Notes under the pieces: generated by a model
The model's database searches: none
Seen by the model: only the letters and a program-made list of their open reading frames with translations
What the model was told of the DNA's origin: nothing
Source of the DNA: Lewinellaceae bacterium
GTDB taxonomy: Bacteria; Bacteroidota; Bacteroidia; Chitinophagales; Saprospiraceae
Direction: 5' to 3'
Length of the DNA stretch: 41,381 nucleotides
Assembly (NCBI GenBank): GCA_029976695.1
Contig: JARQTN010000182.1
Span: 1 to 41,381, forward strand
Shown here: one piece after another, positions 9,433 through 40,965 of the stretch
How the letters are laid out: each line of letters opens with the position of its first letter
Position numbering within the stretch: position 1 is the stretch's first letter
Program-made: the position numbers and the translations under genes

Positions 9433-9433
9433 A

Positions 9434-13294: not shown

Positions 13295-13359
13295 GAAAAG
13301 GGCCATCCCAATCGCCGGAAAACCTTACTTTGCAATTGGTGTTCTTTCACTGATTGCAC

Positions 13360-18951: not shown

Positions 18952-20827
18952 GCAAATCAACTTTTTTATGTTGAAACAAATCACATACCTGATCCAAAAG
19001 TACAGCCAATTCCCTTTTGGTGGCATAGCGGTCGGGCTCATACTTCGGTAATTGATAGACATTTGTCCAATTCTCCTGGATCATTTTCACAAATTCCTGT
19101 GCATTACCAACATCCATTTCCAATGCCTGTTTTGAAGCGATGGTATAGACCAGGTCTATCGCCTGTGCAACAGAAAGGAACATATTTTCCACTTCAAATC
19201 CAATATCTTCCCGAAAATCGTCCAGATCCCTGGCCAGGTCATGTGCGTTTACGATGGAATCCGGATAAAAATACGTCCTGTTCGCCCATTTGTACGGCAC
19301 ACCCTCGCCTCGCAGGATGCCGGTCGCACCGATCTTCTGTATCGCAGTAAAATGTGGATCTTCAGGGGATACATCAACGTAAGGGAGCAGGTATCCGCCG
19401 TACTCAAGGGCCCGTTGCTGGACCGTCCTGGGATCGAGTTGGTATAGCGGAACATCTCCAAGCGATGCCATTGCCGCCATCAGGCCGGCTGCCTGTCCCG
19501 TCTGGATCACGACTGGCTGCAGGCGGGTCGTCCCGTTTACAATATTGGTCACCGAGATCGCTTTATCGGCAATGACGAGGCCATCCACCCCGGCCGGGAT
19601 CAGGCAACCCATAGGTACTGAATAGGAAGGCACAGGGGGAAAATCCAGTTCAGGGGCCTCCGGCACCTCATCGTGATGGTGGTCTATCGGATAATCGCCA
19701 ACAGCAATCCCGGTCCGGTACAGCCCGTCATCGTATGGCTCCGTGATATGTGCAAGGTTCATCCTTACAATTCCCTCGATCCGTCTCCCTTCCCTGTGAT
19801 AGGGATAAAATGGGAGTAAGTCATCTGTCGGAAATTCATCATCAGCCAGCCCCAAATGGGAAAAGCCAAGTTCATGCTGCAGGAAATAGATATAGCGCAA
19901 GGTTTTTGCTTTTGCCATGGCAATCACGGAGTCCCGCTTCGCCTGATTCATTTCCACCATGTTCACGCCGAAATCGTTCCCGTGGCGGGGCCAGTTGATC
20001 ATGTACTTGCTTCCGGGCAATTTACCATATGTCATCATCTGCTCACAATCCAATGCATCTTCAAGCATGCAGCCGGCATGCTTGCAGGTGCAGGTGAATT
20101 CTCCGGGATCGTACCCTGATGGTTTGGTGATTGTCATATCCCGCCCCTCTCCATAATCCTTGAGGATCGCAACATAGGTAAGGTCCTGGACAATATCATT
20201 GCTTTGTTCTGGCGCAATGGATTCCCCGGATACAGCCCTGGCATCCATGCCCAGATCAAAACGGGCGCCAGCTTCCGCCGCCACATCTCCCAGGTCGGTG
20301 CCATCCACCAGGATTTTCGGAGTGATCACCTTTTTCTCGCCGTTTGTGTTTGTCACTTCTACCTTCCATGGCATTTGCTTTTCGAGGAGTTTCCATTCCG
20401 CCTCCAGGTATATCGTCAACATTTCTTCCCGCCTGGCGAGTGCAGACCAAACTTCTGCCCCGACACGGGGTTCAAACATTGTATTGCTCACCCACCCGGT
20501 AAAAAGGGAATCCGCGCCACCATAATGTGCGCGCAGCATCGACCTGAATTCCCCCCAGAGGCCAGCCGGAAGATGATGGTTCCCATCGGTGGCACTCACG
20601 CCAGCTGCGGTAAGCATGCCACCGAGCCATGGATAAGGATGCACCAGGATGGTTTCGGCCCCGCTGCGTGCAGACTGGATCGCTGCCGATATCGCGCCTG
20701 TCCCCCCTCCGATCACGAGGACATCTGCCTTCCGGACATCCGGGCGCACACCCTTACAACCCGAAAAAGCAAGGAAAACAAAAGCGAATACCAGGACGGA
20801 GCTAAATGACAATGTGCATTTTCTCAT
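18935..20827 (-). CDS. FAD-dependent oxidoreductase lipoprotein (FAD_oxidored family)
   Basis: The protein of about 630 residues has a lipoprotein signal ending in LAFSGC (Cys24). The dinucleotide-binding motif VLVIGGGTGAISAAIQSARSG follows at about residues 36-56, and PYPWLGGMLTAAGVSATDG and LVDGTDLGDVAAEAGARFDLG are hallmarks of the FAD_oxidored family. An FAD-contacting segment lies later at GLVIADKAISVTNIVNGT, with LQPVVIQTGQAAG after it. A cysteine cluster, CTCKHAGCMLEDALDC, sits at about residues 246-261 and could bind metal. Family members occur in polysaccharide loci and are thought to oxidise sugar or related hydroxyls, but substrates are mostly unknown. It overlaps lacI by 26 bases and the ASPIC gene by 17 bases, so the three genes form one operon. 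Other in-frame ATGs at 20854 and 20842 are less suited to a signal peptide. Confidence 0.88.
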   Translation of the reverse strand: MRKCTLSFSSVLVFAFVFLAFSGCKGVRPDVRKADVLVIGGGTGAISAAIQSARSGAETILVHPYPWLGGMLTAAGVSATDGNHHLPAGLWGEFRSMLRAHYGGADSLFTGWVSNTMFEPRVGAEVWSALARREEMLTIYLEAEWKLLEKQMPWKVEVTNTNGEKKVITPKILVDGTDLGDVAAEAGARFDLGMDARAVSGESIAPEQSNDIVQDLTYVAILKDYGEGRDMTITKPSGYDPGEFTCTCKHAGCMLEDALDCEQMMTYGKLPGSKYMINWPRHGNDFGVNMVEMNQAKRDSVIAMAKAKTLRYIYFLQHELGFSHLGLADDEFPTDDLLPFYPYHREGRRIEGIVRMNLAHITEPYDDGLYRTGIAVGDYPIDHHHDEVPEAPELDFPPVPSYSVPMGCLIPAGVDGLVIADKAISVTNIVNGTTRLQPVVIQTGQAAGLMAAMASLGDVPLYQLDPRTVQQRALEYGGYLLPYVDVSPEDPHFTAIQKIGATGILRGEGVPYKWANRTYFYPDSIVNAHDLARDLDDFREDIGFEVENMFLSVAQAIDLVYTIASKQALEMDVGNAQEFVKMIQENWTNVYQLPKYEPDRYATKRELAVLLDQVCDLFQHKKVDLHGNWK

Positions 20828-21893
20828 ACTCTTCTTCGACATAGTACCTGACATTCTCGCGCATCACAACATCTAGCGGCAGGAATTGGAGCCGCTGGAT
20901 GTCCCTTTTCAGCACCAGGTGATTAAACAGGTTCATCATGCCCAGGAATCCCTGTTTATATGGATTCTGGTTGATGAGAAACGAAATATCCCCGGATGCC
21001 AGATACGCCAGGTTTTGTTCAATCAGGTCAAACCCGATCAGTGAAACCGGTTTTTGCTGATATTTCTTTATAGCCGGAACCACACGAAACAATTTTGACG
21101 TGGAAACGAAAATGCCCTGCGTCGCCGGATACTTCGCCAGCATTTCCCGGATAAAGCATTCGGTTCCTGTGAGATCCTGGATATCCCCGTAGCTTTCCTG
21201 GACAACGTGGATGTGTTTCTCCGCCTGCTTGTTGAAAAAATCCTCGAACCCTGCCTGTTTGTCCAGCAGGTGCCGGGCATTATACACTTCCTTTTCAAGA
21301 TGGAGGATGATCGCCGTTGCGCCGGGGCTCATTTCGAAATTCAGCAATTTCGCAGCCAATACGCCGGAAGCGTATGAATCCTGGCCGATATAAGCCAGGA
21401 AACAGGAGGTTTCCCGCTCAAGCAAAGTATTGATCTCCACATATTTCAGTCCTTTGGCATCACAATGATCAAGGAGTTCATGGCTTTCACGTGCAAAGCT
21501 GGGTGCCACAAGCAGGGCATCATATGGTGTTCGGAGGATACGTTGCCCCAAAGATCTGAAATGCTCTGGGTCTGCATCCCGAAAAGGATAGTAATCGATC
21601 TGTACGCCGTAGTCCCGCAATGTCTTTACGGCCCTGTGGATCCCTTCCAGCGGCTGTTCCCAGAATGGATCGCCTTCATGGCCAGGGATCAGGACGGCAA
21701 TTTGCCAGCTCTTCTTTGAAGCGAGTGCACTGGCGATGACATTCGGTTCATACTCAAGCTTTTCCATGGCTGCGATCACTTTGTCCCGTGCCTTTGTCGA
21801 AACATTCCCGCGGTTGTGGAGCACCCTGTCCACTGTGCCTTTTGAGACACCAGCCACCTTTGCGATGTCCTTTATTCTGATGCGCTTATTCAT
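20802..21893 (-). CDS. LacI-family transcriptional regulator
   Basis: The 363-residue protein starts with a LacI helix-turn-helix: IKDIAKVAGVSKGTVDRVLH covers the two helices, followed by RGNVSTKARDKVIAAMEKLE and a hinge region NVIASALASKKS. Residues about 65-330 form a periplasmic-binding-protein-like effector domain (IAVLIPGHEGDPFWEQPLEG, DALLVAPSFARES, LIGFDLIEQNLAYLASGDIS). It is the only DNA-binding regulator in the window. It lies 300 bases from the divergent susC, and that gap contains the 16-base palindrome also found at nagB. It is therefore the best candidate for the repressor or activator of the whole mannoside locus. The effector is unknown, and a mannoside or amino sugar is plausible. 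The gene is first in an operon with the oxidoreductase and ASPIC genes. Confidence 0.93.
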   Translation of the reverse strand: MNKRIRIKDIAKVAGVSKGTVDRVLHNRGNVSTKARDKVIAAMEKLEYEPNVIASALASKKSWQIAVLIPGHEGDPFWEQPLEGIHRAVKTLRDYGVQIDYYPFRDADPEHFRSLGQRILRTPYDALLVAPSFARESHELLDHCDAKGLKYVEINTLLERETSCFLAYIGQDSYASGVLAAKLLNFEMSPGATAIILHLEKEVYNARHLLDKQAGFEDFFNKQAEKHIHVVQESYGDIQDLTGTECFIREMLAKYPATQGIFVSTSKLFRVVPAIKKYQQKPVSLIGFDLIEQNLAYLASGDISFLINQNPYKQGFLGMMNLFNHLVLKRDIQRLQFLPLDVVMRENVRYYVEEEYEKMHIVI

Positions 21894-22193: not shown

Positions 22194-25100
22194 ATGAAAA
22201 ATCACTTACTTGTATTCCTTTTTTTCATTTTGGGATCGGCATCCGTGTTGGCCCAGAATGTGATCACCGGTAATGTCACCGGTTCAGACGGGGTAGCCCT
22301 CATCGGGGTATCCGTGTACCAGGAAGGGGACCCCGGAAATGGTACGGTTACAGACATTGACGGGAACTACACGATTGAGGTTCCGTCAGGCTCCGTATTG
22401 ATTTTCTCCTACACCGGGTATGAAACACAACGCATCGAGATTGGGGACCAATCCGTGATCGACATTGTGCTCAGCCAGGGTGTTGCACTCGATGAGGTGG
22501 TCGTCACCGCTCTTGGCATCGAACGGGAGAAAAAAGCCATCGCATATTCCGTCACGGAAGTGGATGCTGAAACTTTCTCTGCAGCACGCGAAATGAATGT
22601 CATCAACTCTCTTGCAGGGCAGGTAGCCGGTGTGAATGTCGCCCAGTCCGCGACCGGAGCAGCCGGTTCAACGCGTGTTGTGATCCGGGGGAACAGTTCG
22701 ATCTCGGGGAACAACCAGCCGCTTTATGTGGTGGATGGCGTTCCGATCGACAACACAAACCTCGGTTCCGCCGGGATGTGGGGCGGACAGGACTGGGGTG
22801 ACGGGATTTCCTCCCTCAACCCGGACGACATTGCCTCTGTAACCGTCCTGAAAGGTAACTCCGCTGCAGCCTTGTACGGATTCCGTGCTTCGAATGGTGT
22901 GATCCTGATCACGACAAAAACCGGGAAAGCAAGGAAAGGCATCGGTGTCGAGATCAACTCCCAGGTCAGGGGAGAAAGCCTGTTCAACCTGAATGACTGG
23001 CAGACCGAATACGGCCATGGCCGGATGGGCATGAAACCCACTACAATGGCAGAAGCTATGGCAAATGGTCTGTATTCATGGGGGGCAAGGCTCGACGGAT
23101 CTAATGTCATCCAGTTTGACGGTGTGGAGAGGCCCTATTCCTACGCCGGAGATCCACAGAGTGAATTTTACCGGACGGGGCTTACGTTTGCAAATACGCT
23201 TTCACTGACCGGCGGATCAGAAAGGGTCAATTACAGGTTTTCAGCAGCTAACCTGTCAAATGAGGATATTGTTCCGAACTCAGGACTTGACCGGAACACG
23301 TTTACATTGAATACCAATGCACAGCTTGGCGAGCGTTTTACAGCAAATGTGAGTGCGACCTATGTAAATGAAAACGCTCAAAACAGGCCGCGCCTCTCGG
23401 ATTCGCCGGGAAATGCCAACTTCACAGTAGGCTTACTGCCTCCCTCGATCGATGTCAATGACCTGAGGGGTGATGAAAACAAGCTGGGGGCAATCGAAGA
23501 TGGCACTGAACTTCAATTTAACGATAACGTGTTCGTCACCAATCCATGGTGGGCCGCGCACCAGTTTGAGGCAAACTCCACGAAAAACAGGCTGATCGGA
23601 AACGTCCGTTTACGCTACGAATTGTTTGACGGATTGTACATCCGTGGGCGCCTTGGTCTCGACAGGTATGATCGCCAAAGGCGCAACCTGACACCTTATG
23701 GTACGGCGTACAGCACCCTTGGACAAATTGATGAACAGTCTACGAACTTCCAGGAACTGAACAAGGAATTGATCCTTGGCTATGACAAGCAAATCACAGA
23801 AAATGTCTCGCTGAACCTTTTTGTCGGAGGAAACCAGCTGAGCAACAGGAGGGAAAACATCGGTGCAAGCGGGAACAATTTTGCTGTCCCCTTCCTGCAC
23901 GATATCCGCAACACCTCAAACCGCAGTGTCATTTATGACTTAAGCGAATTCAAGGTAAACTCACTTTTTGCCTCTGCCGAGATCGGACTTTTACGCTCGA
24001 TCTACCTGACCGGGACGGTGCGCAACGACTGGTTCTCGACGCTGACTGACATCGATGGTATCACCGATAACGACAAGACATATTACTCCGGGGGCGTGAG
24101 CGTTGTGCTGACAGATCTGTTTGATCTTCCAAGCGCGATTGAATTCGCGAAATTCAGGGCAACATATGCCGAGGTAGGTGGTGTCGGTGCTGCAGAACAG
24201 CCCTACCAGCTCTCACTGGCATATGGCGTATTTGCACAGGGCCACCTCGGCCAGCCGCTGGGCGGGATCATCAATAATTCCATCCCGAATTCAAACCTGG
24301 AGCCTTTGACTTCAAAAGAATTTGAAATCGGCCTTGACCTGAGGTTCCTGGATGGTCGACTGGGCCTTGACATTGCCTGGTACAACAGGAATACCCTGAA
24401 CGATATCCTTGGCGGCGCAGTTCCACCCACCACAGGGTATGATTCAAGGATCGTGAACATCGGGAAAATGGACAATACAGGTATCGAATTCCTGCTGAGT
24501 GCAAACCCGGTGCGCAAGAATAACTTCAGGTGGGATGTTTCCCTGAATTTCTCGAACAACCAGAATGAAGTAGTCAGCCTGCTTACAGAAACGCAGGAAG
24601 ACCAAGAAAGCATTCGCGTGGAGGAAGCCAGAACGAGAAATGCGTATATCAACCACATAGAGGGACTTCCATACAGCCAGGTCATGGGCTTTGACTATGC
24701 CCGGGATGATGCCGGGAATATCCTGCTGGATGACGAAGGGATCCCATTGCAGGGGGAACTCATGGCCTTCGGGACAGGTGTCCATCCAACGGCAGTGGGA
24801 TTGAATAACAGCTTCACCATTGGGAATTTCAACGTAAACTTCCTGGTTGAAGGAAAATTTGGCGGTTACATCTACGCAGCGACCAATGCATATGCCTATT
24901 CAAGGGGTCTCCACAAGGCAACGCTGGAAGGCCGTGAAAGCGGGATTGGTAATGTAGCTCCTGCCGATCTTGAGAACTACTACAGCCGTATTTACAACAT
25001 TTCGGGTGAGTTCATCGAAAAAGCAGATTTCATTAAACTGCGTCAGGTGGTCTTATCCTACAACCTGCCAAAATCACTTTTCGGAAATGTGCCGATCGAG

Positions 25101-25265
25101 GGGATTACCATCGGTCTCGCAGGAAGGAATCTCGCTCTGCTGGCAAGCAGCGTGGAGAATATCGATCCGGAATCTACGTACACGACTGGCAACGGCCAGG
25201 GACTCGAGATGTTCGGGGTACCGCAAACAAGGTCATTCCAGTTTAACCTTGGCATCAAGTTCTAA
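22194..25265 (+). CDS. SusC/RagA-family TonB-linked outer membrane transporter
   Basis: The 1023-residue protein begins with a signal peptide ending in SVLAQ. A carboxypeptidase-regulatory-like domain follows (NVITGNVTGSDGVALIGVSV, about residues 22-95) and then the SusC signature region LDEVVVTALGIEREKKAI. The plug domain shows VVIRGNSSISGNNQPLYVVD, DGVPID, and SVTVLKGNSAAALYGFRASN with GVILITTK. The rest is the 22-strand barrel, ending in SFQFNLGIKF with the terminal aromatic residue typical of outer membrane proteins. SusC proteins import oligosaccharides in TonB-dependent fashion with the SusD partner, whose gene follows after 23 bases. The downstream mannosidases suggest a mannose-containing oligosaccharide as cargo. 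It is probably controlled by the operator at 22031-22046. Confidence 0.95.
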   Translation: MKNHLLVFLFFILGSASVLAQNVITGNVTGSDGVALIGVSVYQEGDPGNGTVTDIDGNYTIEVPSGSVLIFSYTGYETQRIEIGDQSVIDIVLSQGVALDEVVVTALGIEREKKAIAYSVTEVDAETFSAAREMNVINSLAGQVAGVNVAQSATGAAGSTRVVIRGNSSISGNNQPLYVVDGVPIDNTNLGSAGMWGGQDWGDGISSLNPDDIASVTVLKGNSAAALYGFRASNGVILITTKTGKARKGIGVEINSQVRGESLFNLNDWQTEYGHGRMGMKPTTMAEAMANGLYSWGARLDGSNVIQFDGVERPYSYAGDPQSEFYRTGLTFANTLSLTGGSERVNYRFSAANLSNEDIVPNSGLDRNTFTLNTNAQLGERFTANVSATYVNENAQNRPRLSDSPGNANFTVGLLPPSIDVNDLRGDENKLGAIEDGTELQFNDNVFVTNPWWAAHQFEANSTKNRLIGNVRLRYELFDGLYIRGRLGLDRYDRQRRNLTPYGTAYSTLGQIDEQSTNFQELNKELILGYDKQITENVSLNLFVGGNQLSNRRENIGASGNNFAVPFLHDIRNTSNRSVIYDLSEFKVNSLFASAEIGLLRSIYLTGTVRNDWFSTLTDIDGITDNDKTYYSGGVSVVLTDLFDLPSAIEFAKFRATYAEVGGVGAAEQPYQLSLAYGVFAQGHLGQPLGGIINNSIPNSNLEPLTSKEFEIGLDLRFLDGRLGLDIAWYNRNTLNDILGGAVPPTTGYDSRIVNIGKMDNTGIEFLLSANPVRKNNFRWDVSLNFSNNQNEVVSLLTETQEDQESIRVEEARTRNAYINHIEGLPYSQVMGFDYARDDAGNILLDDEGIPLQGELMAFGTGVHPTAVGLNNSFTIGNFNVNFLVEGKFGGYIYAATNAYAYSRGLHKATLEGRESGIGNVAPADLENYYSRIYNISGEFIEKADFIKLRQVVLSYNLPKSLFGNVPIEGITIGLAGRNLALLASSVENIDPESTYTTGNGQGLEMFGVPQTRSFQFNLGIKF

Positions 25266-25288
25266 TTCAATCACGATTAAACTTATCA

Positions 25289-26797
25289 ATGATGAAATCA
25301 TTTGGAAAATATATTCTCCTGATCGCAGCATTCTCAATTGTGCTGACCCCGTCATGTGATGACGGTTTCGCAGAGTTGAACGTAAACCCGGGTGCTGCAA
25401 ATTCTATAGATCCCGGCTTTCAGTTCTCATGGATCCAGCTAAGGACATCCGGTGAAAGATATGAAAACTGGAGGGCGGCGTTGATCTATTCCTCCATGAT
25501 GGTCCAGCATATGGCTGCACTTTGCGGCTACTGGTCCGGCGACAAGTACACATACAATGCGGGATATGCATCCTCGCTTTTTGACCGTGGTTATCCACAG
25601 CAGGTAAAGGAAATCCAGGACCTGGTGTATAACCTCGAAACAACCGAGGACGCTGATTTTGCCATGCTTGGTATGGCCAAGATCTGGCGCGCGGTCATTT
25701 TCCACAGGATGACGGATATGTATGGAGATATCCCATATTTCGAGGCAGGTTTGGGCTTTATCGAGCAAAACTTCGACCCGACATGGGACTCCCAGGAAGA
25801 TATCTACAAAGACATGCTGTTCGAACTTGAAGAAGCAGTAGGACTCCTGGGCAGTGGTACGGGCTTTGGATCAGCAGACTTCATCTTTGGCGGTGACGTA
25901 GAGAAATGGAGGCGTTTTGGTAATTCACTGATGCTTCGCCTGGCGATGCGGCTTTCCGAAAGGGAGCCTTCCATTGCTTCAGAGTACGCTGGAAAAGCGA
26001 TTTCGGGCGGCACGCTGCTTGATGGAGACGACGTCTTCCTGCCCCATACAAATGGCCCGGAAGGTGTGAATATGAACGGCATCGGAGAGGTCCTTGACAA
26101 ATCAAACGGATTTGGTGATGACTGCCCCAGGCTGAGCCAGACACTGGTGGACTGGATGCTGGCAACCGGTGATCCAAGACTGGATGTCATTGGTGAACTT
26201 CCTGCCAATGGCGGAGGCCACAATGGCCTGCCCAACGGTTTGGATGAAATGCTCATCCAGGACAACCCGACGGGCACAGAACTTGATGATTTCGATCGTG
26301 TCAATCCACTGATTGTAAGGGTGAGCTCACCGATGGCATTCATGACAGTTGCAGAATCAAGATTCCTGGAAGCGGAGGCTGCCCTCAGGGGATGGGGATC
26401 AGGTAATGCAAACGACCTGTATGCACAGGGTGTGCGCAACGCCATGCGCATTTATGAGAAGTATGATGCATCCCTCGCCATCGATGATGCAGCAATAGAT
26501 GCTTACCTGGCTGCAAACCCGTTCGACGGCAGCATGAAAATGCTTGGGGAACAGTATTGGGCAGCCACATTCCTGAATGAGTATGAAGCGTATTCAAATT
26601 ACAGGAGAACGGGATACCCGGAACTTGTGCCAACTAACCATCCAACCAACGTGACCGGTGGCACGATACCAAAAAGGCTTGTTTATCCCCAGGGCATCCT
26701 GAACAGCGAGAAGTTTCAGGAAGCTAAAGCAAGGCAAAACTTGCCAGATGACTTTGCCAGTATCATGACAGTACCAGTCTGGTGGGATGTCAACTGA
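25289..26797 (+). CDS. SusD/RagB-family (SusD-like 2) glycan-binding lipoprotein
   Basis: The 502-residue product has a lipoprotein signal ending at the Cys of LTPSCDDGF. The segment FAELNVNPGAANSIDPGFQF and the later WRAVIFHRMTDMYGDIPYFEA are the SusD-like-2 pattern: TPR-like helices that hold an outer-membrane surface lipoprotein forming a lid on SusC. Further family features are WRRFGNSLMLRLAMRLS and, near the C-terminus, YWAATFLNEYEAYSNYRRTGYPEL. It binds the substrate at the cell surface. A second ATG lies one codon downstream of the chosen start, so translation could begin at 25292. The gene ends 42 bases before a hairpin that may reduce transcription into the mannosidase genes. Confidence 0.94.
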   Translation: MMKSFGKYILLIAAFSIVLTPSCDDGFAELNVNPGAANSIDPGFQFSWIQLRTSGERYENWRAALIYSSMMVQHMAALCGYWSGDKYTYNAGYASSLFDRGYPQQVKEIQDLVYNLETTEDADFAMLGMAKIWRAVIFHRMTDMYGDIPYFEAGLGFIEQNFDPTWDSQEDIYKDMLFELEEAVGLLGSGTGFGSADFIFGGDVEKWRRFGNSLMLRLAMRLSEREPSIASEYAGKAISGGTLLDGDDVFLPHTNGPEGVNMNGIGEVLDKSNGFGDDCPRLSQTLVDWMLATGDPRLDVIGELPANGGGHNGLPNGLDEMLIQDNPTGTELDDFDRVNPLIVRVSSPMAFMTVAESRFLEAEAALRGWGSGNANDLYAQGVRNAMRIYEKYDASLAIDDAAIDAYLAANPFDGSMKMLGEQYWAATFLNEYEAYSNYRRTGYPELVPTNHPTNVTGGTIPKRLVYPQGILNSEKFQEAKARQNLPDDFASIMTVPVWWDVN

Positions 26798-26838
26798 TCT
26801 CATTAAGAGAAACTGTATTCATTTTATAATCGATATTT

Positions 26839-26875
26839 GCACAGATGAGCCTAAAAACTCATCTGTGCCTTTTTA
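26839..26875 (+). terminator. Rho-independent-type terminator or attenuator after susD
   Basis: A perfect 11-bp stem, GCACAGATGAG at 26839-26849 paired with CTCATCTGTGC at 26858-26868, encloses an 8-base loop and is followed by CTTTTTAA. It lies between susD and the GH92 gene. Partial termination here would give more SusC/SusD than enzyme mRNA, as is common in such loci (inference). Confidence 0.85.
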
Positions 26876-26888
26876 ACACATACCCTGA

Positions 26889-29180
26889 ATGGCTGCAGGA
26901 AAGTCCCTTTTTTCGTTTTTTTCCATTGTGCTTATCCCCTTCCTGTTCACCGCCTGCGATCCTGTCCAGCAGAGCGAGCCGGTCAGTGCCTCGAATGATT
27001 CCCTGACTCGGTATGTAGATCCCTTTATCGGGACAGCAGAGCATGGTCACGTGTATCCGGGGGCTACTGTGCCCTTTGGCATGGTCCAGCTCAGTCCGGA
27101 CAACGGCACGCAGGGCTGGGACTGGTGCAGCGGCTATAACTGGATCGACAGCACGATCGTGGGCTTCAGCCATACCCACCTGAGCGGCACCGGGATCGGG
27201 GACCTGCTGGATATTTCGATGATGCCGGCCAATGCCCGCCTGGATTTCAGCAAACAGGATCCGCCAAAGAATTCTGAGTATACAACGACTTTCTCCCACA
27301 CCAATGAATCCGCCCAGCCGGGATACTACAGTGTCTTGCTGGATAACGGGATCAGGGCCGAACTGACCGCTTCAACCCGCGTTGGCATGCACCGCTACAC
27401 ATTTCCGGATGCAGCCCAAAAGCATCTCCTGCTTGACCTGGGCTTTGCCATAAACTGGGACAAACCCACCCGGACATCAATGACAGTGGACGGGGAAAAC
27501 AGGATGGTCACAGGGTACCGCTACTCCACCGGATGGGCAAAAGACCAGCGTGTCTATTTTGCTGCAAAATTCTCTGAGCCAATCTCTGGTTTCACCCTTG
27601 CAGACAGTACCGAAATCATCGAAGAGACACGGGCTGAAGGCGAAAAACTCCGGTTCCAACTGCAATTCGGGAATGCAACCCGAACCGTCCTGGTTAAAGT
27701 GGGCCTTTCGACAGCGGATGATGCCGGCGCGATTGCCGCATTGGACGAAATACCGGACTGGGATTTCGATGCCCAAAAAGAAAATGCAAGGATGCTTTGG
27801 GAAGAGGAGCTCTCAAAGATCAGGATCTCCACAACGGACGAAAACCTCAGGAAAGTATTCTATACCTCCCTCTACCGGACTTGCCTCGCTCCAGTCGTGA
27901 TGTCAGATGCAAACGGAAAATACAAGGGCGCCGATGGGAAAGTGCACACTTCTGAGGGATGGACCCGTTATGACATCTTTTCCCTCTGGGATACATTCCG
28001 TGCTGCAAACCCATTGTACACGATCATCCAGGAGGACCGGATCAATGATTTTATCCAATCGATGCTCGCCCATTACGATGAATACGGCCTCCTCCCGGTC
28101 TGGTCGTTGTTGGGGAATGAAACGAATACAATGACCGGATACCATGCCATCCCGGTCCTTGTCGATGCCTACATGAAAGGCTTCCGGGATTACGATGTCG
28201 AAAAGGCCTATCAGGCTGTGATTGCAAGTGCCATGCAGGATATCCGGGGAACGGATGATTACCGGGAATACGGGTACATCCCCTTTGACAAGGAAGGCGA
28301 ATCAGTAACCCGGACGCTCGAATATGCCTATGACGACTGGTGCATTGCACAATTTGCCAAAGCACTTGGAAAGGAGGAAGACTACCGGAAATTTATGGAG
28401 CGGTCAGAAAGTTATCGCCCCCTGTTTGATCCCAAGACCGGATTTATGCGCGCGAAATATTCCAATGGCAAGTGGAAAACCCCGTTCGACCCGCAATACT
28501 CGAGTCATGACTTCAGCGTGGCTGAATACACGGAGGGGAACGCCTGGCAACATTCCTGGTTTGTCCCCCAGGATCCGGCAAGCCTGATCGCGCTCCATGG
28601 CGGTGATGAACCGTTTGTCACAAAACTCGATTCCCTGTTTACGATAGACTCCGAGATCCGGGGGGATTTCGCTTCTGCAGATATTTCCGGGTTGATCGGC
28701 CAGTATGCACATGGCAATGAGCCGAGCCACCATATCGCTTACCTGTACAATTATGCCGGCGTACCATCCAAAACACAAGATATCGTCCGGAAAATCATTG
28801 ATACCCAGTACAATGACACACCATCCGGGCTCTGCGGGAACGAAGATTGCGGGCAAATGTCCGCATGGTACGTTTTTTCTGCGATGGGATTTTATCCGGT
28901 AAATCCCGCCCAGGGTGTTTATGTCATCGGGACACCCGTCTTTAACCGGGTGGAAATCGAAAATAAAACCGGGAAAGACTTCATCGTCATTGCAGAAGGG
29001 ACCTCATCCGAAAACAGGTTCATCCAGTCGGCTTCCTGGAATGGAGCACCCTATTCTAAAACGTACATAACCCATGACATGATCACCACAGGCGGAACCC
29101 TTGAATTTGAAATGGGAAAGACCCCAAACAACACCTGGGGTACTTCTAAAGAGGCATTCCCGCCATCGAATACAATGTAA
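26889..29180 (+). CDS. GH92-family alpha-mannosidase lipoprotein
   Basis: The 763-residue protein carries a lipoprotein signal ending in FLFTAC. The GH92 opening RYVDPFIGTAEHGHVYPGA with PFGMVQLSPD, then GFSHTHLSGTG, are at residues about 40-100. The catalytic (alpha/alpha)6 domain includes RYDIFSLWDTFRAANPL, the acid motif HGNEPSHHIAYLYNYAG and the base/calcium motif GNEDCGQMSAWYVFSAMGFY. GH92 enzymes are calcium-dependent exo-acting, inverting alpha-mannosidases, and the GNEDCGQ form of the motif fits alpha-1,2-type members (from memory). As a lipoprotein it acts in the periplasm or on the cell surface. It lies 91 bases after susD beyond the hairpin, and four bases before the GH47 gene. Together with GH47 it points to high-mannose N-glycan or alpha-mannan substrates. 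The start at 26889 gives a normal signal. Confidence 0.95.
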   Translation: MAAGKSLFSFFSIVLIPFLFTACDPVQQSEPVSASNDSLTRYVDPFIGTAEHGHVYPGATVPFGMVQLSPDNGTQGWDWCSGYNWIDSTIVGFSHTHLSGTGIGDLLDISMMPANARLDFSKQDPPKNSEYTTTFSHTNESAQPGYYSVLLDNGIRAELTASTRVGMHRYTFPDAAQKHLLLDLGFAINWDKPTRTSMTVDGENRMVTGYRYSTGWAKDQRVYFAAKFSEPISGFTLADSTEIIEETRAEGEKLRFQLQFGNATRTVLVKVGLSTADDAGAIAALDEIPDWDFDAQKENARMLWEEELSKIRISTTDENLRKVFYTSLYRTCLAPVVMSDANGKYKGADGKVHTSEGWTRYDIFSLWDTFRAANPLYTIIQEDRINDFIQSMLAHYDEYGLLPVWSLLGNETNTMTGYHAIPVLVDAYMKGFRDYDVEKAYQAVIASAMQDIRGTDDYREYGYIPFDKEGESVTRTLEYAYDDWCIAQFAKALGKEEDYRKFMERSESYRPLFDPKTGFMRAKYSNGKWKTPFDPQYSSHDFSVAEYTEGNAWQHSWFVPQDPASLIALHGGDEPFVTKLDSLFTIDSEIRGDFASADISGLIGQYAHGNEPSHHIAYLYNYAGVPSKTQDIVRKIIDTQYNDTPSGLCGNEDCGQMSAWYVFSAMGFYPVNPAQGVYVIGTPVFNRVEIENKTGKDFIVIAEGTSSENRFIQSASWNGAPYSKTYITHDMITTGGTLEFEMGKTPNNTWGTSKEAFPPSNTM

Positions 29181-29184
29181 GCAC

Positions 29185-30588
29185 ATGAATGCACGACAGC
29201 TCACATACCTGACTTCAATTTTCTTTTTGTTTTTGATTCCTGTAAAAGCCCAGCAGCGACCACCAGCACATCAAATGCAAACGGCTACTGGCCGGAGCCT
29301 TGTTTCCGAAACCGAAAGGGAGGCCTTCGCAAAACTGGTAAAAGCTGAATTCGTCCATGCATGGAACGGGTACAAGAAATACGCCTGGGGCCATGATGCA
29401 CTGAAGCCCCTGAGCAAATCCTACAGGGACTGGTATGCCCATTCACTGTACATGACACCCCTTGACGGTTTTGACACCATGATCCTGATGGGGCTGGAAA
29501 AAGAAAAGGAGGAAGCAAAAAAACTGATCCTTTCCGAACTGAGGTTTGACCATGATATGCCTGTCCAGGTATTCGAGGTCACGATCCGGGTCCTTGGTGG
29601 CCTCCTTTCCGCATATCAGCTGGACGGGGACCCGAAATTCCTCCAGCTTGCCGAAGACCTGGGCCAGCGCATGCTGCCCGCATTCAACTCACCGACCGGG
29701 ATGCCTTACCGCATGGTCAACCTGAAAACCGGCGAAACGGATGATCACCTGAACAACCCGGCGGAGATCGGCACGCTGCAGCTTGAGTTCGGCCTGCTCA
29801 GCAAGCTCACCGGCAATCCGGTTTACTACGACAAGGCAAAAAAAGCCTGCACCGCACTTTTTGAGCACAGGTCCGATATCGGTCTCGTAGGTACCGTAAT
29901 TAATGTCAATACCGGGGAGTGGGTCGAGACAGGCAGCCATATCAGCGGCATGATCGATTCCTATTATGAATACCTCCTCAAATGCGGGCTCTTCTTTGAT
30001 GATGCTGATTACCTGGCCATGTGGAATGCCAGCATCGGTCCGGTCAACCAGTACCTGCTGGATACAGCTGAGACAGGCCTCTGGTACAGTCATGTGGACA
30101 TGCATACCGGCAAGCGGCTGAAAACACAGTTTGGTGCACTCGACGCCTTCATGCCAGCCTTGCTCGCACTTGGCGGGGACATCGAAACAGCAAAGGCCGT
30201 CCAGGAGTCCTGCTACAAAATGTGGACGACTTTCCGCATTGAACCCGAACAAATCGATTATACCAAAATGGAAATCCTTTCCGGTTATTATGTGTTACGG
30301 CCGGAGAATATCGAATCGGCGACCTACCTGTACCACCATACGGGTGACAGGAAGTATTTTGAAATGGGAAAAACGATGTTCGAAAGCATTGTGAAATACT
30401 GCAGGACTGAGGAAGCATATGCTGAGCTTTCAGACGTATCCACAATGACCAAAACGGATGGCCTTGAAAGTTTCTTCTTCGCCGAGACCCTGAAGTATGC
30501 TTATCTCTTAGGCAACGACACAACTCCGAAAGGATTCACGAATACCATTTTCAACACCGAAGCACATCCTTTCCAAAAAACGTGGTAG
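29185..30588 (+). CDS. GH47-family alpha-1,2-mannosidase
   Basis: The 467-residue protein has a cleavable signal peptide (MNARQLTYLTSIFFLFLIPV, cut near KAQ). GH47 features follow along the (alpha/alpha)7 barrel: FVHAWNGYKKYAWGHDALKP, YMTPLDGFDTMILMGL, VTIRVLGGLLSAYQLDGD, EIGTLQLEFGLLSKLTGNP, SHISGMIDSYYEYLLK, YYVLRPENIESATYLYHHTG and the calcium-binding threonine in IFNTEAHPF at the C-terminus. GH47 enzymes hydrolyse alpha-1,2-mannose with inversion. The family is best known from eukaryotic N-glycan trimming, with bacterial members much rarer. The predicted location is the periplasm. An upstream ATG at 29101 lies inside the GH92 gene and gives no signal peptide, so 29185 is chosen, four bases after the GH92 stop. 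The next gene starts two bases after this one ends. Confidence 0.93.
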   Translation: MNARQLTYLTSIFFLFLIPVKAQQRPPAHQMQTATGRSLVSETEREAFAKLVKAEFVHAWNGYKKYAWGHDALKPLSKSYRDWYAHSLYMTPLDGFDTMILMGLEKEKEEAKKLILSELRFDHDMPVQVFEVTIRVLGGLLSAYQLDGDPKFLQLAEDLGQRMLPAFNSPTGMPYRMVNLKTGETDDHLNNPAEIGTLQLEFGLLSKLTGNPVYYDKAKKACTALFEHRSDIGLVGTVINVNTGEWVETGSHISGMIDSYYEYLLKCGLFFDDADYLAMWNASIGPVNQYLLDTAETGLWYSHVDMHTGKRLKTQFGALDAFMPALLALGGDIETAKAVQESCYKMWTTFRIEPEQIDYTKMEILSGYYVLRPENIESATYLYHHTGDRKYFEMGKTMFESIVKYCRTEEAYAELSDVSTMTKTDGLESFFFAETLKYAYLLGNDTTPKGFTNTIFNTEAHPFQKTW

Positions 30589-30590
30589 CA

Positions 30591-31784
30591 ATGAACCATA
30601 TCGTATTGCCATTTGCCAAAAAACTGGAAATGCTTCAGCAAAGGCATGATCAATTGATCGGGCAGCCAAATGAGCCCCTGGATACCTATGATAACGGGAT
30701 CTTCCAGCGATACCAAAACCCTGTACTCACTGCCGGGCACACACCTTTGCACTGGAGGTATGACCTGAACCCGGAAACAAATCCATACTGCCTCGAGAGG
30801 CTTGGGATCAATTCCGTATTCAATACGGGGGCGATTGAGTGGCAGGGCAAGGTTATCCTGATCCCGCGGATCGAGAGCAATGATGTGAAATCCTTCTTCG
30901 GTATTGCAGAAAGTGAAAACGGAATCGATAATTTCGGGTTTCGCGATTATCCGATCATCATGCCCCAGACGGATGACCCGGACATGAACGTGTATGACAT
31001 GCGCCTGATCGCGCACGAGGACGGCTGGATCTACGGGACATTCTGCAGTGAAAGGAAAGACAAATCCAGGCCGGAAGACACTTCTGCCGCCATTGCCCAA
31101 TGCGGGATCGCCCGGACGAAAGACCTGGAACACTGGGAAAGGCTGCCCGACCTGAAATCACCATCGCCACAACAACGAAATGCAGTACTCCACCCCGAGT
31201 TTGTCAACGGCCAGTATGCATTTTATACAAGGCCGATGGACGGATTTATCGAAACTGGGGGGGGCGGGGGCATCGGTTGGGGCACGTGCCCGGACATCAC
31301 GAATGCCGTGATCGAAAAGGAGATCATCATCGATTCAAAGAAATACCATACGGTCAAGGAAGTAAAGAACGGACTCGGGCCTGCGCCCCTCAAAACAGAT
31401 ATCGGCTGGCTCCACCTCGCGCATGGTGTCAGACGGACCGCGGCGGGGCTTCGATATGTCCTCTACCTGTTTCTTTGCGACCTGGAAAAACCATGGCTCG
31501 TCACCCGCAATCCCGTCAGGCACTTTCTGGCACCGCACGGGATTGAAAGGGTTGGTGATGTATCAAACGTGGTCTTTTCAAACGGCTGGGTCATGCGGCA
31601 AAACGGTGAGGTCCTGATCTATTACGGATCCTCGGACACGCGTGTACATGTGGTCACCACCACAATAGACATCCTGAAGGATTATATCCTGAATACCCCG
31701 GATGACCCGGGGAATACATTTGCATGTGTGCAGCAGCGCAGGGCGCTGGTGGAAAAAAACCTCGCATACCTGGACAAAAAATAA
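30591..31784 (+). CDS. GH130-family beta-mannoside phosphorylase (mannosylglucose-phosphorylase-like)
   Basis: The 397-residue protein has no signal peptide and is predicted cytoplasmic. GH130 motifs include RYQNPVLTAGHTPLHWRYDL, TNPYCLERLGINSVFNTGAI, FFGIAESENGIDNF, NVYDMRLIAHEDGWIYG with the catalytic aspartate, VLHPEFVNGQYAFYTRPMDG, GWLHLAHGVR and IYYGSSDTRVHV. Length and overall pattern resemble subfamily 1, whose studied members phosphorolyse 4-O-beta-mannosyl-glucose to mannose-1-phosphate and glucose. Because its neighbours fit N-glycan processing, Man-beta-1,4-GlcNAc is an alternative substrate (inference). The ATG at 30591, two bases after the GH47 stop, is preferred over a GTG at 30582. 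The enzyme would finish the pathway begun outside the cytoplasm by GH92 and GH47. Confidence 0.9.
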   Translation: MNHIVLPFAKKLEMLQQRHDQLIGQPNEPLDTYDNGIFQRYQNPVLTAGHTPLHWRYDLNPETNPYCLERLGINSVFNTGAIEWQGKVILIPRIESNDVKSFFGIAESENGIDNFGFRDYPIIMPQTDDPDMNVYDMRLIAHEDGWIYGTFCSERKDKSRPEDTSAAIAQCGIARTKDLEHWERLPDLKSPSPQQRNAVLHPEFVNGQYAFYTRPMDGFIETGGGGGIGWGTCPDITNAVIEKEIIIDSKKYHTVKEVKNGLGPAPLKTDIGWLHLAHGVRRTAAGLRYVLYLFLCDLEKPWLVTRNPVRHFLAPHGIERVGDVSNVVFSNGWVMRQNGEVLIYYGSSDTRVHVVTTTIDILKDYILNTPDDPGNTFACVQQRRALVEKNLAYLDKK

Positions 31785-31805: not shown

Positions 31806-34130
31806 ATGAGGAATCTTGCACATGAGGTCTTTCTTTTTCTGACGGGATGTATCTTACTCCTGGCGGCCTGTACTCAAAATACTGAACACAACCAGGCCGA
31901 ACAGACTCCTGCATTGCCCGAAATTGTCGATTTCAACTTTCATGTGAAGCCGATCCTGTCCGACCGGTGTTTCAAGTGCCACGGACCGGATCCGAATACC
32001 CGCGAAGCCGGCTTGCGGCTCGATACCGAGGAAGGTGCTTTTGCCGCCCTTGGGGATACCGGCGAAAGGCATGCCATTATCCCGAAAGATACGGCCAACA
32101 GTACGATCCTGTCCAGGATCTACACACAGGACCCTGATGACATCATGCCGCCACCAGAATCAAACCTGACCCTGACAGAACGGGAAAAGACCATCATTCG
32201 CAGATGGATCGAGCAGGGCGCAGAATGGAAGGAACACTGGTCCTTTATCCCGCCGGAAAAACCGGAAGTGCCGGAAATCGAAGACGAGGACCGGGCATCC
32301 AATGAAATTGACCATTTTATCCTGGCAAGACTCGAGCAGGAAGGCCTCTCCCCTGCCCCGGCTGCCGAAGCGGAAAAATTGCTGCGCAGGGTCTCCTTTG
32401 ACCTGACCGGGCTTCCACCTTCGATTGAAGAAATTGAAGCATTCAGGAACGACCACAGCGAGGAAGCGTACGCAAAAATTGTCGACCGCCTGCTTTCGAC
32501 TGATGCGTATGCAGAGAAGATGGCCTCCCACTGGATGGATATTGCCCGGTATGCAGATACACATGGGTATCAGGACGACCTCGAGCGCACCATGTGGCCA
32601 TGGCGCGACTGGGTCATCCACGCTTTCAGGAAGAACATGCCCTACGATTCATTCATCGTCTGGCAGCTTGCGGGGGACCTGCTCCCAAACCCTACGAGGG
32701 AACAGGTCATTGCCACGGCCTTCAACAGGAATCACAAGATCACACAGGAAGGCGGCGTCATTCCGGAAGAATACCGCGTCGAGTATGTTTCAGACAGGAC
32801 GACGACATTTGGAACAGCATTCCTGGGATTGACACTGGAGTGTGCCAAATGCCACGACCACAAGTATGACCCGGTCACCCAAAAAGACTTTTACAGCCTG
32901 TATGCATTTTTCAACAATGTGCCTGAGGTCGGGCTGATCGAACCGTATGGTGCCATCCCCGAACCCTATATTGAACTCACCAGGGAGGAAATCGAGGAGA
33001 CGCTCCATTTTATCCGGAACCTGGACACTGTGGACAGGATCCCCCTTATGGTGATGGAGGAAATGAAAACGCCCAGGCAAGCTTACATCCTGAAAAGGGG
33101 GGCCTATGACAAGCAGGGGGAACCCGTCTCTCCCGATACACCTGAAGAATTGCCCGGCTTTGATGAATCCTATCCAAAGAACCGCCTCGGCCTGGCCAAA
33201 TGGCTTTTCGATGAGAAGCATCCGCTGACGGCCCGTGTCGCGGTGAACCGGCTCTGGCAACAATGCTTCGGCCAGGGGATTGTCAGTACATCCGAAGACT
33301 TTGGCAACCAGGGTGCCTTGCCCAGTCATCCGGAACTGCTGGACTGGCTGGCGATCAAACTCATGGAAGAAAACTGGGATATCCGGAAAATGCTGAAATA
33401 TATTGTCCTTTCTTCCACCTACAGGCAAAGTACAAAAGTGACAGCTGAACTGCTTGAACGCGATCCGGAAAACAGGTTGCTGGCCCGTGCACCAAGGCTG
33501 AGGCTGAAAGCAGAAATGATCCGGGACCATGCCCTGGCCATCAGCGGACTCCTGAACCCCGAGATCGGGGGGCCAAGCGTAAAACCATACCAGCCTCCTG
33601 GACTATGGGCTGAAACAACCGGAGGCGGTGGCGGAAGTACCGCGAAATACGTGGAGGATGAAGGTAACAAACGTTACCGGAGAAGCTTGTACACTTTCTG
33701 GAAAAGGACCGTGCCTCCCCCGAACATGATGACATTCGATGCGGCATCGCGGGACCTGTGCACGGTACGGAGGCAATCGACAAGCACCCCCCTCCAGGCA
33801 CTTACCCTGATGAATGATCCGCAGATCGTGGAGGCATCCAGGGTGCTTGCATCCCGTGCATGTGAGGAAAAAGAAGTGGTCAACGACAGGATCAGGATGA
33901 TGTTCCAGGCCGCCACTTCGCGCGCTCCTTCAGAAGATGAACTTGCCCGCTTATTGGCCTATTATGCAGAGGAAAAAGCGCGCTTCCAGGAAAATGAAGG
34001 ACTGGCCGAGGCGCTGCTGTCCACGGGTCCGTATCCGCAGCTGTTCACAGAAAACCAGCCGGATGTGGCCGCACTGACAGTAGTTGCCAATGCGATATTC
34101 AACCTTGACGAAACGATCAGCCGTGGCTAA
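31806..34130 (+). CDS. Lipoprotein with planctomycete-cytochrome-C-like, DUF1549 and DUF1553 domains
   Basis: The 774-residue protein has a lipoprotein signal (CILLLAAC). Residues about 40-120 are a planctomycete cytochrome C-like domain with one CxxCH motif, [24 protein letters not shown]1549 domain follows ([55 protein letters not shown]) and contains a second CxxCH in [18 protein letters not shown]1553 makes up the C-terminal half ([52 protein letters not shown]). The two motifs could bind haem, so a periplasmic redox role is possible. These proteins are abundant in Planctomycetota and Verrucomicrobiota, nearly always paired with DUF1501 proteins as here, and their function is unresolved. 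It starts 21 bases after GH130 and overlaps the DUF1501 gene by eight bases. Confidence 0.9.
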
Positions 34131-35622
34131 AACAGACCCGATCAGACACGAAATCGAACAAAGCCAGCTCGGCATGAACCGGCGTAACTTCCTTTCGAAG
34201 GCGAGCCTGGGGATTGGGGTGGCTGCACTTTCGAGCCTGCTGGGTTGCAACCCATTCCGCCGAACTGGACCAATATCAGACACAAACCAGGCAGATATGC
34301 TGTCCGGTATCCTCGATGCACCGCACTTTGCACCAAAAGCAAAACGCGTCATCTACCTGTTCCAGAGCGGGGGGCCATCACAGCTTGAACTCCTTGACTA
34401 CAAGCCGCTGCTCAATAAACTCAATGGCGAGGAGTTGCCTGAATCTGTCCGCAACGGCCAGCGGCTGACGGGCATGACCTCCAACCAGGAATCCTTCCCG
34501 TTGGCAGGCTCGCTTTATACTTTTGACCAATTTGGCCAAAACGGCACCTGGGTTTCCGAACTCCTGCCATATACGGCACAGATCGTGGATGAACTGTGCA
34601 TCGTCAGGTCCATGTACACGGAAGCGATCAACCACGACCCGGCCATCACCTTTTTCCAGACGGGCTCCCAGCAACCCGGAAGGCCCTGTATGGGATCCTG
34701 GCTCAGCTACGGGCTCGGCAGCATGAATGAAAACCTGCCGACTTTTACGGTTCTCTTGTCGCGCGGAACAGGACGGAAATTTGGCCAGCCGCTTTATTCA
34801 AGGCTCTGGGGCAATGGGTTCCTGCATTCCCTGCACCAGGGCGTGCAATTCAGGTCCGGAAAAGACCCGGTCCTCTACCTGAACAACCCGGAAGGGATCG
34901 ACAGTGTGAGCCGGCGGAAAATGCTCGACCAGCTGGCTGCCCTGAATGCAAGGCAATTTAGGGAGTACGGGGACCCGGAAATCAACAGCAGGATCGCCCA
35001 GTACGAGATGGCCTACCGCATGCAGACCTCTGTACCCGAGGTTATGGATATTTCCGATGAGCCGGATTATATCTACCAGATGTACGGCCCTGAGGCCATG
35101 CAGCCCGGAAGCTTTGCGGCAAACTGCCTGCTGGCCCGCCGGTTGGCGGAAAGGGATGTCCGGTTCATACAGCTCTACCATATGGGCTGGGACCACCATG
35201 AAAACCTGCCATCGGCAGTAAAAAACCAGGCCCGCGATGTGGACCAGGCATCCGCAGCCCTTGTCATGGACCTGAAACAAAGGGGCATGCTGGACGACAC
35301 GCTGGTCATCTGGGGCGGCGAATTCGGAAGGACCAATTACTCCCAGGGCATCCTCACGGACACCAATTACGGACGGGACCACCACCCCAGGTGCTTCACC
35401 ATCTGGATGGCCGGCGGCGGGATAAAACCAGGCCTGGTCTATGGTGAAACGGATGATTTCGGGTATAATATCGTAAGCAAGCCTGTCCATGTGCATGACT
35501 TCCAGGCCACGATGCTCCACCTCCTGGGCATTGATCATGAACAGCTGACCTATAAATACCAGGGGCGGCGGTTCCGCCTGACAGACGTGCATGGAAAAGT
35601 GGTCAGAGATCTGCTGGCTTAA
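34123..35622 (+). CDS. DUF1501 (sulfatase/alkaline-phosphatase-like) protein with Tat-type signal
   Basis: The 499-residue protein has an N-terminal twin-arginine-type signal, MNRRNFLSKASLGIGVAALS followed by SLLGC, after a short leader of the kind usual in this family. DUF1501 proteins have an alkaline-phosphatase-like fold. Family landmarks here are RVIYLFQSGGPSQLELLDYK, QPGRPCMGSWLSYGLGSMNE, VRFIQLYHMGWDHHENL, LVIWGGEFGRTNYSQGI and DHHPRCFTIWMAGGGIKPG. The activity is not established. Partners of the DUF1553 type almost always lie directly upstream, as here. The GTG at 34123, overlapping the previous stop region by eight bases, keeps the leader. The alternative ATGs are 34084, deeper in the previous gene, and the Met of MNRRNF at 34174. 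The stop shares bases with the next gene's ATG. Confidence 0.88.
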   Translation: MAKTDPIRHEIEQSQLGMNRRNFLSKASLGIGVAALSSLLGCNPFRRTGPISDTNQADMLSGILDAPHFAPKAKRVIYLFQSGGPSQLELLDYKPLLNKLNGEELPESVRNGQRLTGMTSNQESFPLAGSLYTFDQFGQNGTWVSELLPYTAQIVDELCIVRSMYTEAINHDPAITFFQTGSQQPGRPCMGSWLSYGLGSMNENLPTFTVLLSRGTGRKFGQPLYSRLWGNGFLHSLHQGVQFRSGKDPVLYLNNPEGIDSVSRRKMLDQLAALNARQFREYGDPEINSRIAQYEMAYRMQTSVPEVMDISDEPDYIYQMYGPEAMQPGSFAANCLLARRLAERDVRFIQLYHMGWDHHENLPSAVKNQARDVDQASAALVMDLKQRGMLDDTLVIWGGEFGRTNYSQGILTDTNYGRDHHPRCFTIWMAGGGIKPGLVYGETDDFGYNIVSKPVHVHDFQATMLHLLGIDHEQLTYKYQGRRFRLTDVHGKVVRDLLA

Positions 35623-39220: not shown

Positions 39221-39448
39221 TGGTTCATTGATTAGTTTGCCCGAAACTATCGATTCAGCATGTGATTTCGGTTGATCAGGATCATGGGCGGATATGTGAA
39301 AGATCATACTTCCGGGTAGCGATTATCATCACCTGCCATAGCCTTAATCATACGGTCGATTGATCAGAAAAGATACATTTGGAGCAAAACATAATTGATG
39401 TATTTCTCATTGAATACATTAAATTCCTAACTAAAGCCAAATGTAACT
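39221..39448. promoter_or_regulatory. Divergent promoter region between the P-loop/asnA operon and gdhA
   Basis: This 228-base gap lies between two gene starts. On the plus strand TACATTTG at 39374-39381 matches the Bacteroidota -7 consensus TAnnTTTG exactly and sits 67 bases before gdhA. On the minus strand TAGTTTCG at 39242-39249 is one mismatch away. Three TGATCA-related motifs occur in the region, but no clear operator is seen. Confidence 0.4.
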
Positions 39449-40881: not shown

Positions 40882-40965
40882 ACTTCATGTCCTTTCTCGC
40901 CAGTGACGGAATGGTTGAATTGCCCTGAATGTTCTTTCCCGGCAAATTTATTCGTAGATTTTACC

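Follow-up and report, generated by a model that had tools for sequence, protein, structure and literature searches.

A GH130_1 paralog with a predicted change of acceptor site in a candidate Saprospiraceae locus for alpha-mannoside utilisation

Which beta-mannoside would a glycoside hydrolase family 130 (GH130) phosphorylase cleave when it is encoded directly behind a SusC/SusD pair and two mannosidase-type genes of families GH92 and GH47? This question is raised by a 41,381-nucleotide stretch of DNA (hereafter the window) from Lewinellaceae bacterium, a member of the Saprospiraceae (GenBank assembly GCA_029976695.1, contig JARQTN010000182.1, here C182), whose draft genome comprises 4.12 Mb and is 97% complete. 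A first-pass annotation had placed the five genes at 22194-31784 and proposed that they degrade high-mannose N-glycans, with the GH130 having switched its acceptor to N-acetylglucosamine (GlcNAc). Profile matches confirmed all five as collinear genes on the + strand (Table 1), separated by 2-91 bases (SusC-SusD 23, SusD-GH92 91, GH92-GH47 4 and GH47-GH130 2); a SusC/SusD pair followed by same-strand carbohydrate enzymes is the arrangement of a polysaccharide utilisation locus. The operon proved longer than first annotated, continuing past GH130 through PSCyt1-PSCyt2-PSD1, DUF1501 and NHL-repeat genes to 36680 (GH130-PSCyt 21 bases, PSCyt-DUF1501 43 bases, DUF1501-NHL overlapping by 1 base). 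Judged from its sequence, the GH130 of this locus represents a paralog whose acceptor site has changed: it belongs to a clade carrying Val in place of Arg94, and the genome also holds an Arg94 copy next to a cellobiose 2-epimerase gene. We give about even credence to an alpha-mannoside utilisation locus in which this GH130 ends an N-glycan-like route, its most likely acceptor being GlcNAc from a Man-beta1,4-GlcNAc core.

Compared with solved structures, the window GH130 was closest to 3was from Bacteroides fragilis (Table 1), followed by 5ay9 from Ruminococcus albus (E = 4.1e-146). It scored 515.8 bits against the mannosylglucose phosphorylase BfMGP (58% identity) and 490.4 bits against RaMP1 (57%), with the next solved GH130 reaching at most 99.9 bits. 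These matches assign the protein to subfamily GH130_1, in line with the resemblance to mannosylglucose phosphorylases seen in the first-pass annotation, and not to the Man-GlcNAc subfamily GH130_2, as close kinship to UhgbMP of that subfamily was not found (4udg, E = 4.1e-19). It resembles GH130_1 mannose-glucose (Man-Glc) phosphorylases in its near-full-length homology, in Asp131 and most charged residues, and in having no signal. One alternative is that it is an ordinary Man-beta1,4-Glc phosphorylase, the loss of Arg94 being neutral drift, and that the glycan broken down by the locus ends in Man-Glc; the invertebrate-type glycolipid core, which contains Man-beta1,4-Glc, is an example of such a glycan. 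The identities to BfMGP and RaMP1 favour this, as does the description of GH130_1 as strictly Man-Glc-active (PMC8950772, extract; here and below, 'extract' marks a source available in part).

Residue 94 of the acceptor site points elsewhere. A survey of 398 family genomes (E up to 1e-100) gave 59 GH130_1 matches in 49 genomes, and the neighbourhoods of all 58 besides the window were compared. Twelve loci (window, L025, L027, L069-L076 and L092) were set apart by neighbourhood before the Arg94 column was read, with the residue already known for the window, L025 and L027, and these were exactly the 12 copies with Val in that column. The remaining 47/47 GH130_1 copies carried Arg, as do BfMGP and RaMP1. 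Two residues of BF0772 make polar contact with the +1 glucose, and Arg94 is one of them (PMC4599007, extract); this glucose-contacting Arg is missing from the window GH130 and its 11 clade mates. Three further columns were changed in the 12 copies, namely Gln211 to Met, Asn277 to Arg (11 copies, including the window) or Lys (one), and Thr291 to Cys. We extended the comparison to the best 80 of at least 564 relatives and to 29 loci from a survey in which 57 of 395 Bacteroidota genomes had a match (E up to 1e-140). The resulting 168 rows, of which 162 are distinct and the six duplicates all carry Arg94, leave out two copies, two distant rows and 27 further new Bacteroidota matches; they span many phyla and comprised 155 Arg and 13 Val. 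Position 277 was Arg or Lys in 12/12 Saprospiraceae Val94 copies and Arg in the thirteenth, L189, versus one Arg and one His among the 155 Arg94 rows. Asp131, which we take to be the catalytic residue of GH130_1, was kept in 168/168 rows, as were the other invariant charged residues. Loss of Arg94 with retention of these residues argues for an active enzyme using an acceptor other than glucose, and since the acceptor site is changed at 94, alongside the changes at 211, 277 and 291 in other parts of the protein, glucose is probably not the natural acceptor of the window GH130. The unchanged Asp131 equally suits a Man-Glc phosphorylase, but drift sits poorly with an Arg94 conserved in all but 13 of the 168 rows.

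The first-pass annotation had proposed placing the GH130 in a subfamily tree. Trees built without the four diagnostic columns (94, 211, 277 and 291) united the 12 Saprospiraceae Val94 copies in one separate clade within GH130_1, with support of 97 in FastTree and of 100/96 and 100/97 in IQ-TREE (61 and 54 chosen rows, respectively). L189, from a Bacteroidales metagenome-assembled genome, has Val94 and Arg277 with Gln211 and Thr291, and adjoins a divergent GH18 gene. It fell within the clade in one tree (support 64) and represented a second change in two others, which weakened a single origin of Val94. The planctomycete Arg94 copies L145, L166 and L194 are possibly the sister of the Val94 clade (78/58). 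One of these loci shows a run of symporter, GH130_1 and GH18 genes (L145:183-3765), and in L166 a GH18 gene lies directly 3' of the GH130 match.

The genome itself supplies an Arg94 copy (L023; G000, contig C6, 7453-8661), 62% identical to the window GH130 and 69% identical to BfMGP. It is flanked by a cellobiose 2-epimerase gene (3wkf, E = 1.6e-113) and a symporter gene, with GH5 and hybrid two-component regulator genes close by. This setting of cellobiose 2-epimerase and GH130_1 is that of a known mannan route (PMC8950772, extract). Arg94 copies also occurred in 7/12 Val94 genomes (G000, G001, G014, G030, G195, G226 and G244), each with an epimerase homologue nearby; only the L023 epimerase was compared with solved structures, the others being homologues of it. 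Homologues of this epimerase were found near 38/47 Arg94 copies and near 0/12 Val94 copies, some of whose loci end at contig edges. With an Arg94 copy and an epimerase already in the genome, and the epimerase seen in none of the Val94 loci, we consider an ordinary Man-Glc phosphorylase at this locus unlikely. A PF04041 search of the genome returned two GH130 proteins, both GH130_1, with no third GH130 and no GH130_2; no GH130_2 therefore competes for a Man-GlcNAc role.

In place of the epimerase of Man-Glc phosphorylase loci, the Val94 clade has GH92 and redox-type neighbours. GH92 was found at 9/12 Val94 loci, the PSCyt-DUF1501-NHL module at 8/12, SusC and SusD at 7/12 and GH47 at 3/12; the L071 locus starts at its GH130. 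The module thus accompanied Val94 GH130 more often than GH47 did. We compared 12 Val loci (excluding the window and including L189) with 124 Arg loci, a set that includes six duplicates. The epimerase occurred in 0 versus 79 (Fisher test, P = 1.4e-5), GH92 in 8 versus 0 (P = 2e-10), NHL in 7 versus 0 (P = 5e-9) and NagB in 2 versus 0 (P = 0.007). Kinship does not enter these P values; as nearly all Val loci belong to a single clade, the values reflect an association that became fixed once or twice.

The two mannosidase-type proteins would act before the GH130. The window GH92 carries both GH92 domains, and its closest solved relative is BT3130 (6f8z), whose +1-site Trp 172 and 198 have counterparts, recognised by spacing, in the alignment. 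BT3130 is described as likely alpha-1,3-specific, with an uncertain linkage, and as lying outside any characterised locus; the members of its clade, except BT3965, either act on alpha-1,3 linkages alone or combine alpha-1,3 with other activities (PMC5930347, extract). The His-Glu pair of the alpha-1,2 GH92 +1 site (His584/Glu585 in BT3990; PMC5930347, extract), which precedes GQYAHGN, was absent from the window protein and from 7/7 same-type GH92 viewed. The GH92 of L073-L075 is of a different type (34-35%), and in L073 it bears this alpha-1,2 signature. The window GH47 has a full domain and retains the catalytic and calcium residues of human endoplasmic reticulum mannosidase I, including Glu330, Asp463, Glu599 and Thr688, which we take to be the GH47 catalytic residues; Asp523-His524 of the human enzyme is replaced by Gly-Ala. 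Because the window GH92 lacks the His-Glu pair, the alpha-1,2 step that a BT3130-type GH92 would not provide may fall to GH47. A second GH92 gene of the genome lies directly 3' of a ROK-family gene (L239:288-3684).

GH47 had been called uncommon in bacteria; in Bacteroidota it was not very rare: 41/395 sampled genomes (our own included) had a match, of which 39 scored above cut-off and 32 were full-length with E near or below 1e-100. A PF01532 survey of 199 family genomes gave 18 matches in 17 genomes (16 above cut-off), and neighbourhoods were examined at 14 places besides the window, leaving out three weak matches (E about 1e-4). The order SusC-SusD-GH92-GH47 was common to the window and the four loci with the most similar GH47 (L024-L027), with 62-69% identity across the set (63-65% for GH47 alone) and two extra open reading frames between SusD and GH92 in L024. 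This conservation exceeds chance. GH130, PSCyt, DUF1501 and NHL followed GH47 in 3/5 of these loci (window, L025 and L027).

Signal types were judged by eye from the N-termini, as were lipoboxes and RR-type N-termini elsewhere in the window. They bore out the earlier reading of GH92 as a lipoprotein (LFTA-CD), GH47 as having a cleavable signal (ending PVKA-QQ, with no lipobox cysteine) and GH130 as having none. The order of compartments drawn from them did not stand, because GH47 carries a lipobox in 4/4 close relatives (L024-L027), unlike in the window; the steps cannot be ranked by signal type.

Taken together, we suggest that SusC/SusD would bind and import the glycan, GH47 would take off alpha-1,2-mannose and the BT3130-type GH92 alpha-1,3-mannose outside the inner membrane, and, after a putative transport step across that membrane, the cytoplasmic GH130 would phosphorolyse the last beta-1,4-mannoside to mannose 1-phosphate and the reducing-end sugar. 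A Man-beta1,4-GlcNAc phosphorylase has moderate backing from the pairing of GH92 with GH47, from NagB or GH18 genes in a few relatives, and from the finding of GH130_1 alone in the genome. Genes hinting at GlcNAc include a NagB-PIG-L fusion gene between GH92 and GH130 in the L072 operon (a relative of the window fusion) and another that closes L092, as well as GH18 genes adjoining L070 and L189 and a GH20 gene adjoining L025. In the window they comprise the N-acylglucosamine 2-epimerase gene, whose link to the locus is putative, and the NagB-PIG-L gene, 9-15 kb upstream; the latter possibly provides a downstream step of the pathway. Such an enzyme would resemble the GH130_2 Man-beta1,4-GlcNAc phosphorylases (UhgbMP, and BT1033, whose sequence was left out of the comparison) in reaction and pathway position, but its homology to UhgbMP is only distant and it has Val where UhgbMP has Arg. 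The operon with which Bacteroides thetaiotaomicron handles high-mannose N-glycans (GH18 BT3987 with three GH92) likewise has mannose trimming by GH92 (PMC10154615, extract), but the window operon has GH47 and no GH18, and that review contains no occurrence of GH47.

Several observations weigh against GlcNAc as the acceptor or against an N-glycan substrate. In UhgbMP, the Man-GlcNAc enzyme of solved structure, the residue aligned with Arg94 is likewise Arg, and Arg94Val as the known solution for GlcNAc acceptance was rejected on this ground. The link between Val94 and neighbourhood is one evolutionary event and not 12 independent ones, because all 12 copies form one clade. Its PSCyt/DUF1501 part is not exclusive, PSCyt relatives being found near 3 and DUF1501 relatives near 2 of the 47 Arg94 copies (NHL near 0). 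Among the 12 Val94 loci, GH47 is infrequent, NagB lies near two and GH18 near one (L189 being outside the 12). The locus genes scanned yielded no endo-beta-GlcNAcase (GH18/GH85) and no peptide:N-glycosidase (PNGase), GH85 had no match in the genome, and two GH18 genes are on other contigs (one 57% like the L070 GH18). A PNGase search gave no match in the genome and none in any control, and carries no weight. Finally, a GntP-type permease that travels with GH130 in L073-L075 suits an acid. Of the first-pass reading, the mannoside locus with GH92 and GH47 stands, as does the sign of a changed acceptor site, with GlcNAc itself plausible; the match to high-mannose N-glycans is incomplete, since neither an endo-GlcNAcase nor a PNGase turned up in the scanned locus genes.

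The permease and residue 277 bear on an acid acceptor, in which the FAD (flavin adenine dinucleotide) oxidoreductase and the diheme PSCyt protein would oxidise the reducing end, and GH130 would phosphorolyse a mannosyl aldonate or uronate with Arg/Lys277 binding the carboxylate. Such a route would resemble the cellobionate phosphorylase route of GH94. The near-confinement of Arg/Lys277 to Val94 copies suits it, as do cytochrome and FAD proteins near part of the Val94 clade and a GntP permease gene between GH92 and GH130 in L073-L075, found in none of the other loci among the 138 GH130 loci searched. A mannose-glucuronic acid phosphorylase has also been reported in GH130 (PMC8950772, extract). 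The GntP evidence, however, counts as one case because the L073-L075 loci are near-copies (permeases 93-94% alike), NagB in the L072 operon points to an amino sugar, and we know of no substrate for PSCyt, DUF1501 or FAD proteins of the window type. Judging from these sequences we consider an acid acceptor quite improbable. A more specific version, in which oxidation of the trimmed glycan's reducing end by exported FAD and PSCyt/DUF1501 proteins would feed a new GH130 activity of the Val94 clade, the cytoplasmic, Arg/Lys277-bearing GH130 acting on the mannosyl aldonate or uronate, has in our judgement a small chance of being right. At L073:5918-10943, a GH92 gene bearing the alpha-1,2 signature, a GntP permease gene and a Val94 GH130 gene are consecutive, with no SusCD nearby, and the same order is seen in L074 and L075.

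A further possibility is that the locus serves fungal or algal alpha-mannan, with GH130 a side activity for a different beta-mannoside. The uncertain, likely alpha-1,3, linkage of BT3130 and its position outside any characterised locus (PMC5930347, extract) would allow this, as would the presence of GH47 in only three Val94 loci, but the locus proteins scanned, to which the search for these families was confined, included no GH76, GH99 or GH125, and GH92 and GH130 are kept together in most Val94 loci (9/12). We regard it as improbable.

Less can be said of the PSCyt/DUF1501/NHL module and the genes around it. Solved structures gave no relative of the PSCyt or DUF1501 proteins at E up to 0.1, nor of the FAD protein at E up to 0.01, and AlphaFold models from eight close copies were unusable (mean predicted local distance difference test score 43.7 for PSCyt and 34.5 for DUF1501). 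The function of PSCyt/PSD genes was stated as unknown in 2017 (PMC5615132, extract). Planctomycete-type PSCyt/PSD clusters similarly pair a PSCyt/PSD protein with a neighbour of unknown family, with a suspected carbohydrate link (PMC5615132, extract), but that of the window stands in one operon with named mannoside enzymes and in a Bacteroidota family. Near the 11 other Val94 loci we found a LacI-type regulator (6/11), an FAD oxidoreductase (4/11; L069 and L073-L075) and an FG-GAP/UnbV protein (2/11; L025 and L069). In L027, CHB_HEX_C and CBM9-like proteins are encoded directly after NHL. The former (L027:1331-2170) matches the protein encoded from 40903 (33% over 144 residues, 63% over 30), and the latter has a relative just past the window end (62% over 375 residues). 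The NHL and CHB_HEX_C-like genes directly adjoin in L027, L069, L070, L071 and L092; in the window, aspartate-ammonia-ligase (TIGR00669), unnamed (no Pfam or NCBIfam match) and glutamate-dehydrogenase-type genes lie between them (36744-40819). The gene at 40903 is thus probably a detached part of the operon. Just beyond the window, a gene for a sulfatase with a CHB_HEX_C domain precedes one for a PSCyt1-type protein (L038:2865-7059).

Upstream, a minus-strand cluster (7316-11254) comprises N-acylglucosamine 2-epimerase, DUF4434 and sodium:solute symporter genes, with NagB-PIG-L beginning at 11369. The epimerase was rejected as a cellobiose 2-epimerase, and hence as a sign of the mannan route, by its match to N-acylglucosamine 2-epimerase. 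A large secreted protein bearing a CHU_C type IX secretion signal domain is encoded at 13354-15576.

Table 1 Features of the window, with activities predicted from family membership
Feature	Coordinates	Strand	Evidence and remarks
SusC/RagA TonB-dependent transporter	22194..25265	+	TIGR04056 608.6 bits, above cut-off; PF07715; signal peptide
SusD-like surface glycan-binding lipoprotein	25289..26797	+	PF12771 E 1.3e-75
GH92 alpha-mannosidase lipoprotein, BT3130 type	26889..29180	+	PF07971/PF17678; best PDB 6f8z
GH47 class I alpha-1,2-mannosidase	29185..30588	+	PF01532 E 9e-124, 414 bits; best PDB human ER mannosidase I; signal without lipobox; ATG start read from sequence
GH130_1 mannoside phosphorylase	30591..31784	+	PF04041; 3was E 7.7e-154; no signal; ATG start read from sequence
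PSCyt1-PSCyt2-PSD1 lipoprotein	31806..34130	+	PF07635, PF07583, PF07587; two CxxCH haem motifs, residues 55 and 346
DUF1501 protein	34174..35622	+	PF07394 E 1.2e-159; RR-type signal and lipobox; start from eight-copy alignment
NHL-repeat protein	35622..36680	+	PF01436; synteny; RR-type N-terminus
Fn3_assoc/CHB_HEX_C relative	40903..41379	+	runs beyond window to about 41595
LacI-type regulator	20802..21893	-	PF00356; divergent from operon
Exported FAD-dependent oxidoreductase	18935..20854	-	PF12831 E 3.6e-83; lipobox; divergent
FG-GAP/UnbV_ASPIC protein	15577..19062	-	PF13517, PF07593; divergent
NagB-PIG-L fusion (glucosamine-6-phosphate deaminase)	11369..13294	+	TIGR00502 262.6 bits vs 236.9 cut-off; outside operon
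N-acyl-D-glucosamine 2-epimerase	7316..8491	-	NF052547 655.6 bits vs 600 cut-off; 2gz6 E 4.2e-170

At the level of titles and abstract openings, the literature searched described no GH47-GH92-GH130 locus in Saprospiraceae and no acceptor change in GH130_1. The tie of PSCyt/PSD1, DUF1501 and NHL proteins to a mannoside locus makes mannosides a substrate class to try for them, and coupling to oxidation, if true, would give the PSCyt/PSD/DUF1501 proteins a defined substrate context. For the family, the Val94 clade and the Arg94 paralog, present together in seven of the 12 genomes, form a natural pair for testing the evolution of acceptor choice, and the clade could represent an independent origin of Man-GlcNAc phosphorolysis.

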